From NCBI GenBank assembly GCA_003586005.1, contig NSKI01000020.1:1-40336 (forward strand): a DNA stretch of 40,336 nucleotides, read 5' to 3'. This DNA is from Haloplasmatales bacterium 4B. Lineage in GTDB: Bacteria > Bacillota_I > Bacilli_A > Haloplasmatales > Haloplasmataceae. Shown piece after piece: positions 1,563 to 9,764 of the stretch (positions are counted from its first letter, which is position 1; each line of letters begins with the position of its first letter). A program made the position numbers and the translations under genes. The notes beneath the pieces were generated by a model. The model was not told the origin of the DNA, did not search any database, and saw nothing but the letters and a program-made list of their open reading frames with translations.

Positions 1563-2038
1563 TGAATGAAGTTTTAAAAGAAATAGAGAATATTTGGAAT
1601 AATTATCCTGCTGTTGGTAATACGTTAAGTTTGATACCGCCATTAATTACAATCATTTTAGCAAAGTTATTATTGAGTGCAAAGAAAAAAATAGCTGAAT
1701 TACTGTTGAACGACAAGAAAAAAGTTCCGGAAGAAAAAATAGATTTATTAATTGACAATCAAATTAAAAGCGATCAGAACGTTCAGAATTTAAATCGCAT
1801 GATACTAACATTTGCTTTAAATACAAATATTGATAGCAAAGTCAAAGAAGAAATCATCAATGCATATCAAAATATAAAACTAAACACGGTTGAGATTACA
1901 GAGAAAACAAAAGAATTTATAAATAACACTATTGAACAATCAAAAGAATTAGTAGAAGATATCAAAGAAAAGGCAGAAACAACTGTTAAGGAAACAAAAT
2001 CAATCATTGATAAATATCGTGAAGAACTAAAAGAGTAG
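1562..2038 (+). CDS. Membrane-anchored coiled-coil protein
   Basis: 158 aa. One hydrophobic segment near residues 20-39 (LSLIPPLITIILAKLLL) is followed by a long, highly charged helical region to the C-terminus, rich in Lys and Glu. This could be a holin-like or spanin-like membrane protein or a membrane-tethered structural helper. It is first of three consecutive membrane-protein genes, in the slot where Firmicutes phages usually carry holin and endolysin. No lytic domain is visible. Confidence 0.6.
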   Translation: MNEVLKEIENIWNNYPAVGNTLSLIPPLITIILAKLLLSAKKKIAELLLNDKKKVPEEKIDLLIDNQIKSDQNVQNLNRMILTFALNTNIDSKVKEEIINAYQNIKLNTVEITEKTKEFINNTIEQSKELVEDIKEKAETTVKETKSIIDKYREELKE

Positions 2039-3879: not shown

Positions 3880-4719
3880 ATGAATATAAAGAAAATAGTG
3901 GCTGGTGTAGCGTTTGCAACCATATGTGGTGTTGGTGGGTATACAGCCGTTACATTAACCGAGAGTGAGCCAGAAGCAACTACGACTATCGCAACAACGG
4001 ATACAGCCACAACAACTACAGAGCCTACACAAGAAAAAATAACATTTGAGTATTATGTCATAACTGAGGAAGCAGTAAAAAACGGGTGGACGTGCGGAAC
4101 AATAGATAGGTGCGATAAATTTAGTGAAATCCCAATTTACGTTTATATTTATGATCCGGCATTACTAGGCAAACATAAAATTAACGTAACAACCGGAGCA
4201 GATGTTTTACAAGCAGATATTAATGTTGTATATGTTGATATATACAATAATATTTTAGGAGAGGAAGCATATACTGTTTATAGTAACTCTCTTAGAGGGT
4301 TTGTTTTAGTTATTGAAGACTACCCAGTAGGCACGAAATACGTAAAATTTGCAGATATTACAAATATTGTTTATCCAGATAGAGAGGTAAGTAACGATTG
4401 GGAATGTAACCAAAAAGAATGTGTAAACGAAAACGGTAAAATGCGAGTTGATATTAGTGATATTAATATCGACGATAGAATCATAGCATATTTCTATTAT
4501 GACGTTGTACAGTTTAATTTAGATTTATTGTTTGTGAATGAAAACGGCGAAATAACAGAAAAAACATTAACCGTAAGCGACTATAACGAGAATTTAACAT
4601 TTGATTGGAAGTATAGAAAATATTATGTATTTATTGATTATTTGTTAGGGGATGATTTCCCGGAAGATACCAAATATATAAAATTTAAAGATATTAACAA
4701 TATAATAGAAAAGGACTGA
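3880..4719 (+). CDS. Secreted or membrane-anchored moron protein with duplicated domain
   Basis: 279 aa with AAAAGGAGAGG upstream. An N-terminal hydrophobic segment (about residues 5-25) after MNIKK is a signal or anchor; the Cys near residue 17 is not in a good lipobox. A Thr/Ala/Glu linker (about 27-50) leads to two related ~110-residue domains. Each begins with a W-x-C...C pair (CGTIDRC and CNQKEC) and ends with TKYxKFxDIxNI, so the outer part arose by internal duplication with probable disulphides. Own promoter, own terminator and a place between late and accessory genes are the signs of a lysogenic-conversion gene. It may alter the host surface or block superinfection; no family is recognised. 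Confidence 0.7.
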   Translation: MNIKKIVAGVAFATICGVGGYTAVTLTESEPEATTTIATTDTATTTTEPTQEKITFEYYVITEEAVKNGWTCGTIDRCDKFSEIPIYVYIYDPALLGKHKINVTTGADVLQADINVVYVDIYNNILGEEAYTVYSNSLRGFVLVIEDYPVGTKYVKFADITNIVYPDREVSNDWECNQKECVNENGKMRVDISDINIDDRIIAYFYYDVVQFNLDLLFVNENGEITEKTLTVSDYNENLTFDWKYRKYYVFIDYLLGDDFPEDTKYIKFKDINNIIEKD

Positions 4720-4740
4720 TTAATTTCAGTCCTCTTTTTT
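4712..4740 (+). terminator. Intrinsic terminator of the moron
   Basis: Perfect 8-bp stem AGGACTGA / TCAGTCCT, six-base loop, then CTTTTTT. The stop codon of the preceding gene lies in the left arm. In the reverse direction a shorter T run follows, so it may also stop the operon arriving from 4742. Confidence 0.9.
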
Positions 4741-4980: not shown

Positions 4981-5478
4981 CTAATCCATAAATCTATTAA
5001 AATACTTTTTTACAAACTCATACGCTGTCATATTAAGACCTTTTGCTATAGCGTTCATCGTCGATAGGGATATATTTTCAAAATCAGCATTATTAGATAT
5101 TACTCTATACAATACTGATTTATCACAATCAGCATTTTTTGCTATTTTGTAAATTGTTGTTTCATTTTCAAGACAAATAATGTCTAACCAGTGGCATTTA
5201 TAAGTTTCTTGTAGTTCTTCCCATTTAGCATTATCAACTATTACCATTTTGCCATCTTCGTAATATGAAATTACTTGCATACCATCATTGATGGCATTTT
5301 CTAACGTTTCGGCATAATCGTCCCATCTGTTAGGACCATCCCAATTACTAAAATCATCATTTTCCTTTTCTGCATTAATAAAATCATACATAACTTTTTC
5401 ATCAACTTCAATCCATGTCCCGTTTGGGAGTAAAATCCCATCATAAGCGTTTGTGTTAATTAAAATTGCATTTTTCAT
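4981..5478 (-). CDS. Protein with C-terminal helix-turn-helix, candidate antitoxin or regulator
   Basis: 165 aa. The ATG at 5478 is preferred over an upstream TTG because AAAAGGAGG precedes it. The N-terminal ~90 residues are acidic with three Trp (DFSNWDGPNRWDDYAETL). The C-terminal ~55 residues (TIYKIAKNADCDKSVLYRVI...LSTMNAIAKGLN) match an XRE-type HTH pattern. It follows the ADP-ribosyltransferase-like gene by 48 bases, an arrangement seen in toxin-antitoxin modules with XRE antitoxins, although there the HTH is usually N-terminal. The pairing is inference. Confidence 0.5.
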   Translation of the reverse strand: MKNAILINTNAYDGILLPNGTWIEVDEKVMYDFINAEKENDDFSNWDGPNRWDDYAETLENAINDGMQVISYYEDGKMVIVDNAKWEELQETYKCHWLDIICLENETTIYKIAKNADCDKSVLYRVISNNADFENISLSTMNAIAKGLNMTAYEFVKKYFNRFMD

Positions 5479-5526: not shown

Positions 5527-5832
5527 TTAATCATTATAGACTAAAATTGCTTTAACTAAATCATCAGTTTTAAAAAATCTTGCTTCGCCGTCATATTCAG
5601 GGTCTATAAATGTGTTATTACCATCAGATTCAAATTCAACAACTGCAATCTCCCAACCAGAGGAATTGTCTTTTGCAAAAGATATGGCATCTTTTAAATT
5701 ATCAAACCCAAATATTCCATTAGTTAAAAATCTATCAACTGAATAAGAATGTTTATATGTTGTTTGTGGTATTAACCCATTTTCTAAAATATCCTCTACG
5801 TTCTCTTGTAATGTCCCGTGATATAACTTCAT
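5527..5832 (-). CDS. ADP-ribosyltransferase-like protein (candidate toxin)
   Basis: 101 aa from the ATG at 5832, with GGGGAGAG upstream; a TTG at 5850 would add six residues but has no ribosome site. The start MKLYHGTLQENVEDILENGL is the signature beginning of ART/KptA-like folds (YHGT followed by a helix ending in ENGL); then a small fls-like strand, a KDAISFAKD helix and a short beta end with Asp and Glu residues. Compact ARTs modify nucleic acids or proteins and occur as toxins and phage effectors. The hammerhead ribozyme lies immediately upstream. The fold call is moderate; target and activity are unknown. Confidence 0.45.
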   Translation of the reverse strand: MKLYHGTLQENVEDILENGLIPQTTYKHSYSVDRFLTNGIFGFDNLKDAISFAKDNSSGWEIAVVEFESDGNNTFIDPEYDGEARFFKTDDLVKAILVYND

Positions 5833-5856: not shown

Positions 5857-5916
5857 ATTAGCCTATCTCGTCAGTACCTGGTGGCTAATCCAGTGTAGAC
5901 CTCCGAAGAGGTTTCG
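5857..5916 (-). ncRNA. Type II hammerhead ribozyme with loop I pseudoknot
   Basis: Read on the reverse strand every conserved core base is present: C5916 then GAA (5915-5913), A15.1 at 5912; stem III CCUC/GAGG capped by UUCG (5911-5900); U5899 and cleavage base C5898 (a GUC site); stem I UAC-CUGG / CCAG-GUA (5897-5875, one bulged A); CUGACGA (5874-5868); G5867 pairing C5916, then A5866 with U5917. Stem II is otherwise weak, but loop I AUUAGCC (5889-5883) is exactly complementary to GGCUAAU (5863-5857), a seven-bp pseudoknot of the kind known in prokaryotic type II hammerheads. Cleavage is predicted between 5898 and 5897. Confidence 0.85.
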
Positions 5917-5918
5917 AA

Positions 5919-6083
5919 TTATTTAATTAAAGTGTCGTCATTATAAATAGATGTAATTTCATCGCCGTTATCTAATAGTGCTGTATATCCTTTTACAGCC
6001 ACTACTTTTGCTGTAACTTCGCTTTTTTTACCGAACATATAATGTTTCGTATAAGTTATTTTGTCACCTTTGTTTAATTCCAT
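5919..6083 (-). CDS. 54-aa beta-rich protein, first gene of the ribozyme operon
   Basis: ATG at 6083 with AAAAAGGAGATAAAAAA upstream; a promoter lies 38 bases further upstream. The sequence (MELNKGDKITYTKHYMFGKK...VVAVKGYTALLDNGDEITSIY) has the alternating strands of a small SH3/KOW-like barrel. The stop is only two bases from the hammerhead, so ribozyme cleavage would leave this message with a structured 3' end ending in stem III. Function unknown. Confidence 0.6.
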   Translation of the reverse strand: MELNKGDKITYTKHYMFGKKSEVTAKVVAVKGYTALLDNGDEITSIYNDDTLIK

Positions 6084-6120: not shown

Positions 6121-6149
6121 ATTATATGATATTTAGTGGTAAATTACAA
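6121..6149 (-). promoter_or_regulatory. Promoter of the accessory (ribozyme) operon
   Basis: Reverse strand TTGTAA, 17-base spacer, perfect TATAAT. It reads into the 54-aa gene, ribozyme, ART-like and HTH genes. The remaining bases up to 6300 hold only AT-rich sequence and two copies of AAAACCGACC (6243 and 6274). Confidence 0.7.
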
Positions 6150-6300: not shown

Positions 6301-6329
6301 AAAAAGAAAAGACTAGATAAACTAGTCTT
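6301..6329 (-). terminator. Terminator of the partition operon
   Basis: Reverse strand AAGACTAG / CTAGTCTT (8-bp stem, five-base loop) followed by TTCTTTTT. The stem overlaps the stop codon of the RHH gene. Confidence 0.8.
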
Positions 6330-6609
6330 ACTTGATGAAACTGCTTAACAAACTATCTGCATCGTCGTCAACTATAAAATCATCACTAAAATCGTCTTCC
6401 TTTTTCTTGACTATAGTAGTTGTTCTCTGTTTTGAAAAAGTTATTTCATCCTTTAATTTATCTACTATGTCTTGCACAATGTTTTTGTTGTTTTGATAAA
6501 AATCAAATAAAAACTTTATTGCGGGCTTTGTACCTCTTTTTGAAATAAATTCGTACAATTCTCTTTCTTTGGCTGGGTTAATTCTAATCGGTTTTTGTAC
6601 GCTTTTCAT
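6328..6609 (-). CDS. Ribbon-helix-helix partition partner (ParR-like)
   Basis: 93 aa. The N-terminus (KSVQKPIRINPAKERELYEFI..RGTKPAIKFLFDFY) has the strand-helix-helix pattern of RHH proteins; the C-terminus is acidic (DDFSDDFIVDDDADSLLSSF), a likely filament-binding tail as in ParR proteins. It starts 8 bases after the actin-like gene. In type II plasmid partition ParR binds centromere repeats and couples them to ParM filaments. Assignment rests on fold pattern and pairing. Confidence 0.65.
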   Translation of the reverse strand: MKSVQKPIRINPAKERELYEFISKRGTKPAIKFLFDFYQNNKNIVQDIVDKLKDEITFSKQRTTTIVKKKEDDFSDDFIVDDDADSLLSSFIK

Positions 6610-6617
6610 ATTATCAC

Positions 6618-7643
6618 CTATATTTTATATAACTGTTTTGCGATTATGTAAAATCCGCATGCATTAGCAAGTAATGGGTTATCAACTAAGACTATTCTGT
6701 TATCATTTCCAAATGCTTTTCTAATTGACTTTTCTAAAGTCTTACTTCCTCCGCCAGTCAATATAATTTGATGATAAATCTCAAAATTATAGCCAAATTT
6801 ATCTAATGCGGATTTGATCTCATGAGCCATTTCATTTTGCAATCTTTCTTTAATTGATTTTACATTAAATTTTCCCCTAGGGAGTTCAAGTGTGTCTGTG
6901 TTCACAAGCATTTTGTCAAGCTCGTAAGGATTCTCGATTGCAGCAGACAAGCGACTGTCGGGATATTCTTTTTCAATAGCATTATATAGATTCGCAACAT
7001 AATCACTCATGGCTTTTGGTAAAGTCTTGTTGTTTCCTAATCCTTTAGCTGCTGATAATTCGACCATATCTGTTGTTCCATAACCAATATCTACTATCAA
7101 GAACTTTCGATTTTTTATGTTGCTATCTTCGGATTTCATTGTTCCATCATTATTATAAATAACGCTCCAAAGAGTACCAATCGGTTGACTAACAATAATA
7201 ACATCAGTGATAGAAAAAGATTTTCTTTCTTTCGTTTCTTTACAATATTCAATTTCAACTTCATATTCACCTAATAGATTTTTCTTCATCTTTTTAACCA
7301 ATTCCTCTCGTTCAGATAAACTAGCAGGCACCCCTGTAACTAGCTTAATTTCTTCGTTTTGAGTTGTTACTATATCACTTAATCCTATTGCAGTTTCTTT
7401 TTTAAAATTTTCACTGTAGTATCTTGATTCATCTTTTGATCCACTTCCTATACCTCCAACTAACCCTTTGATATAACGTTTATCTTTGTACGTATAAATT
7501 TTCTGATTTTGTAAAAGATTTGACAAAAGCCCCTCATTTACTTCTTGTAAAGTGTTTAAATAGTATGTAACTTTCCCATTCGCAACAATTTTTACTGAGG
7601 AGTTGCTATCCTCAAAACCCATTGCAGTTTTTTTAATGTTCAT
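6618..7643 (-). CDS. parM: ParM/StbA-like actin ATPase
   Basis: 341 aa, usual length for ParM/Alp proteins. Actin-fold landmarks: phosphate-1 region GFEDSNSSVK (residues 9-18), TGVPASL (103-109), phosphate-2 VDIGYGTTD (184-192) and adenosine motif LTGGG (295-299). Phosphate-1 is unusual, lacking the usual DxG. The start ATG overlaps the TGA of the upstream gene (ATGA). Such proteins polymerise with ATP to push sister plasmids or phage DNA apart. With the RHH gene it forms a plasmid partition pair inside a phage genome. Confidence 0.85.
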   Translation of the reverse strand: MNIKKTAMGFEDSNSSVKIVANGKVTYYLNTLQEVNEGLLSNLLQNQKIYTYKDKRYIKGLVGGIGSGSKDESRYYSENFKKETAIGLSDIVTTQNEEIKLVTGVPASLSEREELVKKMKKNLLGEYEVEIEYCKETKERKSFSITDVIIVSQPIGTLWSVIYNNDGTMKSEDSNIKNRKFLIVDIGYGTTDMVELSAAKGLGNNKTLPKAMSDYVANLYNAIEKEYPDSRLSAAIENPYELDKMLVNTDTLELPRGKFNVKSIKERLQNEMAHEIKSALDKFGYNFEIYHQIILTGGGSKTLEKSIRKAFGNDNRIVLVDNPLLANACGFYIIAKQLYKI

Positions 7644-8477: not shown

Positions 8478-9764
8478 ATGAAAAACGTATTAATTAAAAA
8501 AATTAAATATCTTATAACTCAAAACAAATTAAAAGTAAAATTTAAAACCTATATAGAGTCAGAAGCTTATATTAAATTTGAGCTTGAAGGAACAGTAAAT
8601 AAAAATTTTGAAAATGAATTGAGGGGGTTATTGGGCTTTAATGTGTCTGTCACAAATGAAAACGGATATGTCAATATCATTTTTAGGAATCCGAATTTTA
8701 ATGAATTGCAATTATTAGAGTTTTTAAACAGTGATTTTTTTAATAACAGAAAAGAAATATTAAAATTTGCTTTAGGCGAAAATGTTAATGGAGAACGAAT
8801 CATAGGCGATCTAGAAAAAATGATACATTTGTTAGTAGCTGGCGAAACTGGTAGCGGGAAAAGTGTTTGTTTACATAATATTATTAATTCATTAGTTTAT
8901 GGTAATGATACTTCGATTTTAAGGCTTGTTTTAATGGATCTAAAGCGTAATGAATTTGTATGTTATGAATCACTAGGGCATTTGTTACGACCTGTTGTTT
9001 ACACTAAAGAAGTTGCTTTAAAGGTGTTGAAGTTTTTAACAGAAGAAATGAATAAAAGATTTGATTTGTTTAGAGAGAATAAATGCAGGAATATCAAAAC
9101 CTACAATCAGAAAAATGAACCTATACCATACATCGTTGTTATCATTGATGAATTTCAAAATTTAATTTTAAAAACTAAAGAAGCAGAAAATTACATAATC
9201 GATTTAGCAACCATGGCTCGTTCAGCGGGAATACATTTAGTTTTATCTACTCAAAAACCATCTGCCGACGTAGTAACATCGTTGATTAAAGCCAATATTC
9301 CAACACGTATTGCTTTTAATGTTTCAGATCACTATGACAGTCAAGTAATTTTAGGTGTTTCTGGAGCTGAAAAATTAAATAAAAAAGGAGATATGCTATT
9401 AAAGGATGAGGACGGAATTGAGCGCATTCAGTGTTGCTATATATCAGATGAAGATATAGATAATTTTATTCAAGATTATAACAAGAAAATTGATTTTAAT
9501 GAAATTAATATTTTTGAGGAAGAAGATTCATTTATCGACGATGAAAAGTTTGAGGCTGAAGATTATGAAAAATGCGTTGAAGAAGTAAAAAAACAAAATA
9601 GATGCTCGCATTGGATGATTAAAAAATTTTTGAATGTTGGAGACACAAAAGCTGAAAATATCATACAACAATTACAAGATAATAAGATAATAAGTATTGA
9701 GTTTAATGGATCAACAAAATCATATGATATTTTAAACCGTGAGGAGGGAAATTATGGCGATTAG
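8478..9764 (+). CDS. FtsK/SpoIIIE-family DNA translocase
   Basis: 428 aa, ATG with AAGAAAGGGG upstream. An N-terminal ~100-residue domain without membrane segments precedes the motor: Walker A GETGSGKS (122-129), Walker B VVIIDEF (D224, E225), then the LATMARSAGIHLVLSTQ and IPTRIAFNVSD segments typical of FtsK RecA-like motors. The last ~70 residues (SHWMIKKFLNVGDTKAENII) resemble the winged-helix gamma domain that reads DNA polarity. Lacking a membrane anchor, it looks like the soluble translocases of plasmids and integrative elements. It probably moves or resolves the circular phage DNA alongside the partition operon that shares its operators. Confidence 0.85.
   Translation: MKNVLIKKIKYLITQNKLKVKFKTYIESEAYIKFELEGTVNKNFENELRGLLGFNVSVTNENGYVNIIFRNPNFNELQLLEFLNSDFFNNRKEILKFALGENVNGERIIGDLEKMIHLLVAGETGSGKSVCLHNIINSLVYGNDTSILRLVLMDLKRNEFVCYESLGHLLRPVVYTKEVALKVLKFLTEEMNKRFDLFRENKCRNIKTYNQKNEPIPYIVVIIDEFQNLILKTKEAENYIIDLATMARSAGIHLVLSTQKPSADVVTSLIKANIPTRIAFNVSDHYDSQVILGVSGAEKLNKKGDMLLKDEDGIERIQCCYISDEDIDNFIQDYNKKIDFNEINIFEEEDSFIDDEKFEAEDYEKCVEEVKKQNRCSHWMIKKFLNVGDTKAENIIQQLQDNKIISIEFNGSTKSYDILNREEGNYGD

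Follow-up and report, generated by a model that had tools for sequence, protein, structure and literature searches.

Described type II hammerheads and related systems

Type II hammerhead ribozymes (Rfam family RF02276) are known from prokaryotes and phages, as the earlier note on this DNA had stated. Perreault et al. (2011; PMC3088659) reported a pseudoknot between loop I and the tail, with loss of activity and rescue upon mutation, a stem II with just one or two pairs, and single prophage genes with hammerheads at their flanks. The element analyzed here lies in a window of 40,336 nucleotides (the whole stretch of DNA that was analyzed) and shares with these ribozymes the common core, the stem order, the loop I-tail pseudoknot, the short stem II, the prophage setting and the gene-flanking position. 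It differs in scoring below the Rfam threshold (28 versus 37 bits), in having a seven-pair pseudoknot at the long end of the range and in having neighbors without close homologues, but it is the same in kind. Clustered prophage hammerheads (A. tumefaciens ardA, Clostridium scindens and Azorhizobium; PMC3088659) are likewise situated between small accessory prophage genes on one transcript, whereas the genome of the window has a single copy and no cluster.

The theta ribozymes of gut phages, which are HDV-like (PMC10879173), are likewise small self-cleaving RNAs that process phage transcripts. Unlike the window element, they have another fold and are associated with tRNAs rather than with mRNA junctions. 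In synthetic biology, 5' UTR insulators of the RiboJ type consist of an engineered satellite-virus hammerhead with an added hairpin; placed before a ribosome binding site, they give the downstream mRNA a defined hairpin and a 5'-OH at its start, independent of the upstream sequence. RiboJ works alike by analogy; its permutation differs from that of the window element and the two are not homologous.

A 2017 review (PMC6155905) states the phage association and calls the role of prokaryotic hammerheads open. The architecture, the pseudoknot and the prophage context of the window copy were already published in 2011 (PMC3088659), and the copy alone adds little. A literature search found no paper on phage hammerheads that abut a stop codon, which does not prove that there is none. 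What is added here is a quantified position and a quantified exchange between stem II and the pseudoknot, either of which may have been published elsewhere; the survey puts numbers on the phrase 'often near prophage genes'.

The hammerhead element

Direct reading of the minus strand from 5919 to 5857 gave AUUCGAAACCUCUUCGGAGGUCUACACUGGAUUAGCCACCAGGUACUGACGAGAUAGGCUAAU, the parts of which are listed in Table 1. The whole invariant hammerhead core is present (CUGANGA, GAA, A15.1-U16.1, G10.1-C11.1 and a cleavage base H17), and the segments follow each other in the order stem II - GAAA - stem III - UC - stem I - CUGACGA - stem II, with stems I and III closed by loops and stem II open. Stem III has an A-U pair plus four pairs and a UUCG loop, and stem I has seven pairs and one bulged A. 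Stem II consists of two clean pairs (G10.1-C11.1 and A10.2-U11.2), or three if one U is bulged, and the GGCUAAU tail is directly 3' of it. The predicted loop I-tail pseudoknot comprises seven Watson-Crick pairs in the register of the covarying family. The chemistry of hammerhead cleavage is well established and was used to place the predicted cut.

The ribozyme is in the sense orientation, with a stop codon before it and the next ribosome binding site after it. The stop codon of the 54-aa ORF ends two bases before C11.1; the downstream ATG (5832-5830), preceded by GGGGAG, lies 24 nt past the pseudoknot. The earlier note had claimed the complete core in the type II permutation, both closed stems, a GUC site cut at 5898|5897, perfect complementarity of AUUAGCC and GGCUAAU, a stop two bases upstream and a start some 25 bases downstream, all in a phage setting; the reading of the sequence agrees with it on each of these. 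Judged from its sequence, the element is confirmed as a type II hammerhead with a pseudoknot, located in a prophage between two small genes on the same strand.

Table 1. Positions in the window of the hammerhead element, its parts and the neighboring features.
Feature	Position	Strand	Basis
Promoter-like site (TTGTAA, 17 nt, TATAAT), 37 nt before 54-aa ORF; tentative	6121..6149	-	consensus scan, 10/12
Upstream ORF, 54 aa (MELNKGDKITYT...), stop UAA 5921-5919	5919..6083	-	translation
Type II hammerhead ribozyme including pseudoknot tail	5857..5919	-	RF02276 28.0 bits; R1 58.5 bits at 5857-5922
C11.1	5916	-	sequence
GAA-A	5915-5912	-	sequence
Stem III hairpin, A-CCUC(UUCG)GAGG-U	5899..5912	-	sequence
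U16.1-C17	5899-5898	-	sequence
Predicted cleavage site GUC|U, C17 (5898) / U1.1 (5897)	5897..5898	-	hammerhead chemistry applied to sequence
Stem I hairpin, UAC-A-CUGG/CCAG-GUA	5875..5897	-	sequence; 99.7% paired in 104 relatives
Loop I strand of pseudoknot, AUUAGCC	5883..5889	-	seven Watson-Crick pairs with 5863-5857
Core strand CUGACGA (C3 to A9)	5868..5874	-	sequence
G10.1	5867	-	sequence
Pseudoknot tail strand, GGCUAAU	5857..5863	-	register as in 104 covarying relatives
Downstream ORF, 101 aa (MKLYHGTLQENVEDILENGL...), tentatively ADP-ribosyltransferase-like	5527..5832	-	PF00644 17 bits (cut-off 26.7)
Next ORF, 165 aa, HTH-like C-terminus	4981..5478	-	PF13443 18.7 bits (cut-off 22)

Flanking genes

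Pfam and PHROG searches with the 54-aa ORF gave no match worth naming. The number of promoter-like sites found in the region by the consensus scan was near that expected by chance, so the site ahead of this ORF is tentative. The earlier note had called the downstream gene a putative ADP-ribosyltransferase; its start is where the note placed it, but the label is weak, as the match to the PARP profile PF00644 is below the cut-off (Table 1). The 101-aa ORF matched PHROGs weakly, in phage families without known function, and a structure model made from the single sequence reached a pLDDT of 44, too poor for a structure search. Comparison of the 101-aa sequence with the PDB yielded nothing useful, and no relatives were found in viral contigs, the 395 genomes of the class, phages or plasmids; the same gene context could therefore not be compared across phages. 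The 165-aa HTH ORF is probably in one operon with the 101-aa ORF.

Elsewhere, the window encodes an integrase, RecT, terminase, portal and head proteins; the terminase is nearest to those of phages of Geobacillus and Clostridioides, and no DNA relatives of the locus were found in phage records.

Significance of the match

At the Rfam gathering scores no match was reported anywhere in the window. In an E-value search, RF02276 was the best match in the region (28.0 bits; gathering score 37). The search with the type II model, proposed in the earlier note as a check, thus fell short of the database threshold, but on the element's own 2.26-Mb genome it returned this locus as the sole match at E≤1 (E = 0.00136), and none of 14 control genomes was matched at E≤0.01. 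The threshold of 37 bits is a database cut-off and no defining property of type II hammerheads; about half of the type II matches in 20 phage loci (10 of 21) score below it.

A second covariance model (R1) was built from 31 other hammerheads, with the present element excluded. It gave 58.5 bits for the element (filters off) against 13.4 for the runner-up in the window, and an E-value across the genome of about 1e-11, for which the calibration is rough; the 31 members had been found with patterns derived from the present element and its relatives, so the core letters do not count as independent in these scores, whereas the stem pairing and the pseudoknot do.

Plain folding without pseudoknots did not give the hammerhead as the minimum-energy fold (z of -0.87), because the pseudoknot is not modeled. 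With the pseudoknot ignored, stems I and III amount to -12.8 kcal/mol versus -14.7 kcal/mol for a competing fold; the pseudoknot duplex is worth about -7.5 kcal/mol. Stem III (-5.8 kcal/mol) is weaker than the family median of -10.3 kcal/mol, and the stem I hairpin is likewise weaker than in most of the family.

Position in the phage family

Viral contigs yielded at least 200 stretches matching one of two sequence patterns, and bacterial genomes a further 17. The matches listed comprised 238 distinct viral and bacterial copies, 219 of them with enough flanking sequence on both sides. The copies retrieved are skewed toward sub-patterns, gene calling followed simple rules, and relatedness was not corrected for in the following figures. 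An ORF of at least 40 codons stops 1-8 nt before C11.1 in 157 of the 219 listed copies (72%; random positions, 4.3%), and a Shine-Dalgarno sequence with a start codon is present 10-50 nt after G10.1 in 163 (74%; random, 10%). Both features occur together in 118 listed copies (54%), compared with 0.4% at random. Similar proportions were seen in the 19 copies found solely by the model and not by a pattern: stop in 13, Shine-Dalgarno and start in 14, both in 9. As a family, the type II hammerheads occupy the gap from a stop codon to the ribosome binding site that follows it, and the window copy is an ordinary member of this large phage family.

The proteins encoded downstream of the listed copies have a median length of 97 aa and are mutually unrelated; even the most frequent PHROG accounted for 3 of 146 proteins, and the most frequent Pfam family for 4. 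A gene-specific role for the ribozyme was rejected on account of this heterogeneity. The YHGT-like start of the downstream protein was absent from all other downstream proteins of the listed copies.

Several contigs carry 3-5 type II copies, all on the same strand and about 280-810 bases (one small gene) apart; such arrays, observed on contigs L019, L067, L084 and L050, would excise single-gene mRNAs. Two copies (L084:1572-1638, plus strand, and L039:2273-2352, minus strand) carry GUA rather than GUC as their cleavage triplet, with ordinary copies on the same contigs. On phage contig L192 a type III hammerhead (1786-1844, minus strand; 41 bits, just under the gathering score) is flanked by two type II copies, making this an array of mixed hammerhead permutations.

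Covariation and exchange of stem II for the pseudoknot

For 104 relatives whose stem I is equally long, 99.7% of the alignment cells of stem I were paired and 86% of those of the pseudoknot. Two-sided changes were found in 325 cells, compared with 82 in shuffles. Pairing over stem I and the pseudoknot together was 93.4%, and fell to 27-44% when the partners were slid by 1-3 columns. Among the copies listed, a pseudoknot of at least four pairs was present in 103 of 157 with a stem II of up to three pairs and in 13 of 81 with a longer stem II (Fisher p of about 1e-13, relatedness not corrected). Taken from the alignments, the pseudoknots covary and substitute for a long stem II across the family. 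The window copy, with its two-pair stem II and a pseudoknot among the longest of the family, fits this exchange, in line with the earlier suggestion that the extra pairing offsets a weak stem II. That the pairing is unlikely to arise by chance, also suggested earlier, agrees with a swapping control: when loop I of one family member is set against the tail of another, about 0.7% of the combinations form at least seven Watson-Crick pairs.

Proposed mechanism and alternative explanations

We consider it quite probable that the element is an intercistronic type II hammerhead of a Firmicutes-type prophage, predicted to cleave and thereby to split the transcript into two complete mRNAs. One transcript probably spans the 54-aa ORF, the ribozyme, the 101-aa ORF and the HTH ORF. 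Stems III and I would fold co-transcriptionally, after which loop I would pair with the tail over 7 bp, the pseudoknot replacing a long stem II in holding the core. Self-cleavage after C5898 would leave both ORFs whole. The upstream mRNA would retain its stop codon and carry a 2',3'-cyclic phosphate at its 3' end, which is formed by the stem III hairpin. The downstream mRNA would open immediately with the stem I hairpin, bearing a 5'-OH, and its own ribosome binding site would follow. The likely outcome would be separate mRNAs, uncoupled in stability and translation. The data show the ribozyme motif, its pseudoknot and the positional rule, whereas we infer that the RNA cuts, what becomes of its products and how it is of benefit; the hairpin ends would follow from the type II topology, in which the cut falls between two closed hairpins. 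Both hairpins of the window copy fall short of the family median in stability, so end protection may be modest there. The earlier note had taken the position to point to mRNA processing, and such a role gains support because the intercistronic position is the rule for the family. Cutting into separate mRNAs is close to the proposal of Perreault et al. (2011), and for similar hammerhead arrays cleavage occurs both in vitro and within E. coli (PMC3088659). Points against are the sub-gathering Rfam score, the two-pair stem II, the weak hairpins, the competing fold that is slightly more stable without the pseudoknot, and a promoter that is a mere consensus match.

A broader idea, which we regard as unlikely though not far-fetched, is that phages favor type II between genes because it alone leaves both products hairpin-capped and because a stop codon at or inside stem II lets the terminating ribosome delay the cut, upstream translation thus gating cleavage. 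Its two components, end protection of both mRNAs and gating by the terminating ribosome, are made testable by the survey. An improbable rival explanation is that the active ribozyme serves as a switch: ribosomes terminating next to stem II would block folding, and the cut would occur only when the upstream ORF is poorly translated. A ribosome on a stop codon in this position must, from its established footprint, lie over stem II and the first part of the core, and should delay folding. The commonest stop distance is 2 or 3 nt before C11.1 (93 of the 219 listed copies), and in 63 listed copies the last base of the stop codon is inside the stem II strand. However, gene pairs without a ribozyme on the same contigs are also compact (median gap 9 nt), so compactness alone explains the spacing; tight spacing as proof of ribosome gating was rejected for this reason. 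Moreover, irreversible cleavage means that most transcripts would finally be cut anyway.

It is very improbable that the products of an active ribozyme are rejoined or circularized, or that the element is selfish or a relic without a role for the flanking genes. The mutually unrelated downstream genes would fit such a reading, and the 5'-OH and 2',3'-cyclic phosphate ends left by hammerheads can be joined by RNA ligases. Yet Perreault et al. sought spliced or circular products and found none (PMC3088659), a single copy in the genome leaves no circle that could be excised here, and the strict position and the covariation argue for selection. It is exceedingly improbable that the element is no ribozyme and matches by chance, or that stem III is a terminator-type hairpin lying beside an unrelated one between the genes. 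The sub-gathering Rfam score, the unremarkable plain folding and the terminator-like appearance of stem III on the plus strand are in favor of such a reading; against it are the E-values obtained per genome with both models and the agreement of pseudoknot register, stop distance and start distance with the family. The terminator reading was rejected for the transcribed strand, where stem III runs into UCUACACUGG and not into a U run. The preferred reading remains that of an intercistronic ribozyme.

A copy in a related genus and further features of the prophage

Among the 8 genomes (6 genera) of the host's family, a clear copy was found in one besides that of the window, at G006:C2:1766-1838, with a score of 48.3 bits under R1; in the class as a whole, copies above threshold are present in 2 of 395 genomes. 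The G006:C2 copy shares the core plus the AAUUCGAAAC and GAGAUAG flanks with the window element, and differs in stem III and in the loop I/tail pair (AUGG with CUAU, one G-U). It is also placed between a stop codon and a start codon, and an HTH ORF related to that of the window lies two genes after it. FtsK-like, ParM, ParR/CopG-like and HTH proteins on this contig are related to those of the window (the two long ones at 51% and 38% identity), and coupling-protein-, relaxase- and topoisomerase-like genes were recognized by reading translations; because of these genes the contig looks like a conjugative plasmid.

In the window, a ParM-like actin, a small ParR/CopG-like ORF and an FtsK-like ATPase are encoded at 6328-7643 and 8478-9764, in a prophage with integrase and head genes, and the same set is found on the plasmid-like contig. 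The window prophage is possibly a phage-plasmid or a recombinant. A strong two-way terminator-like hairpin is located at 4709-4736, between convergent ORFs ending at 4719 (plus strand) and 4742 (minus strand).
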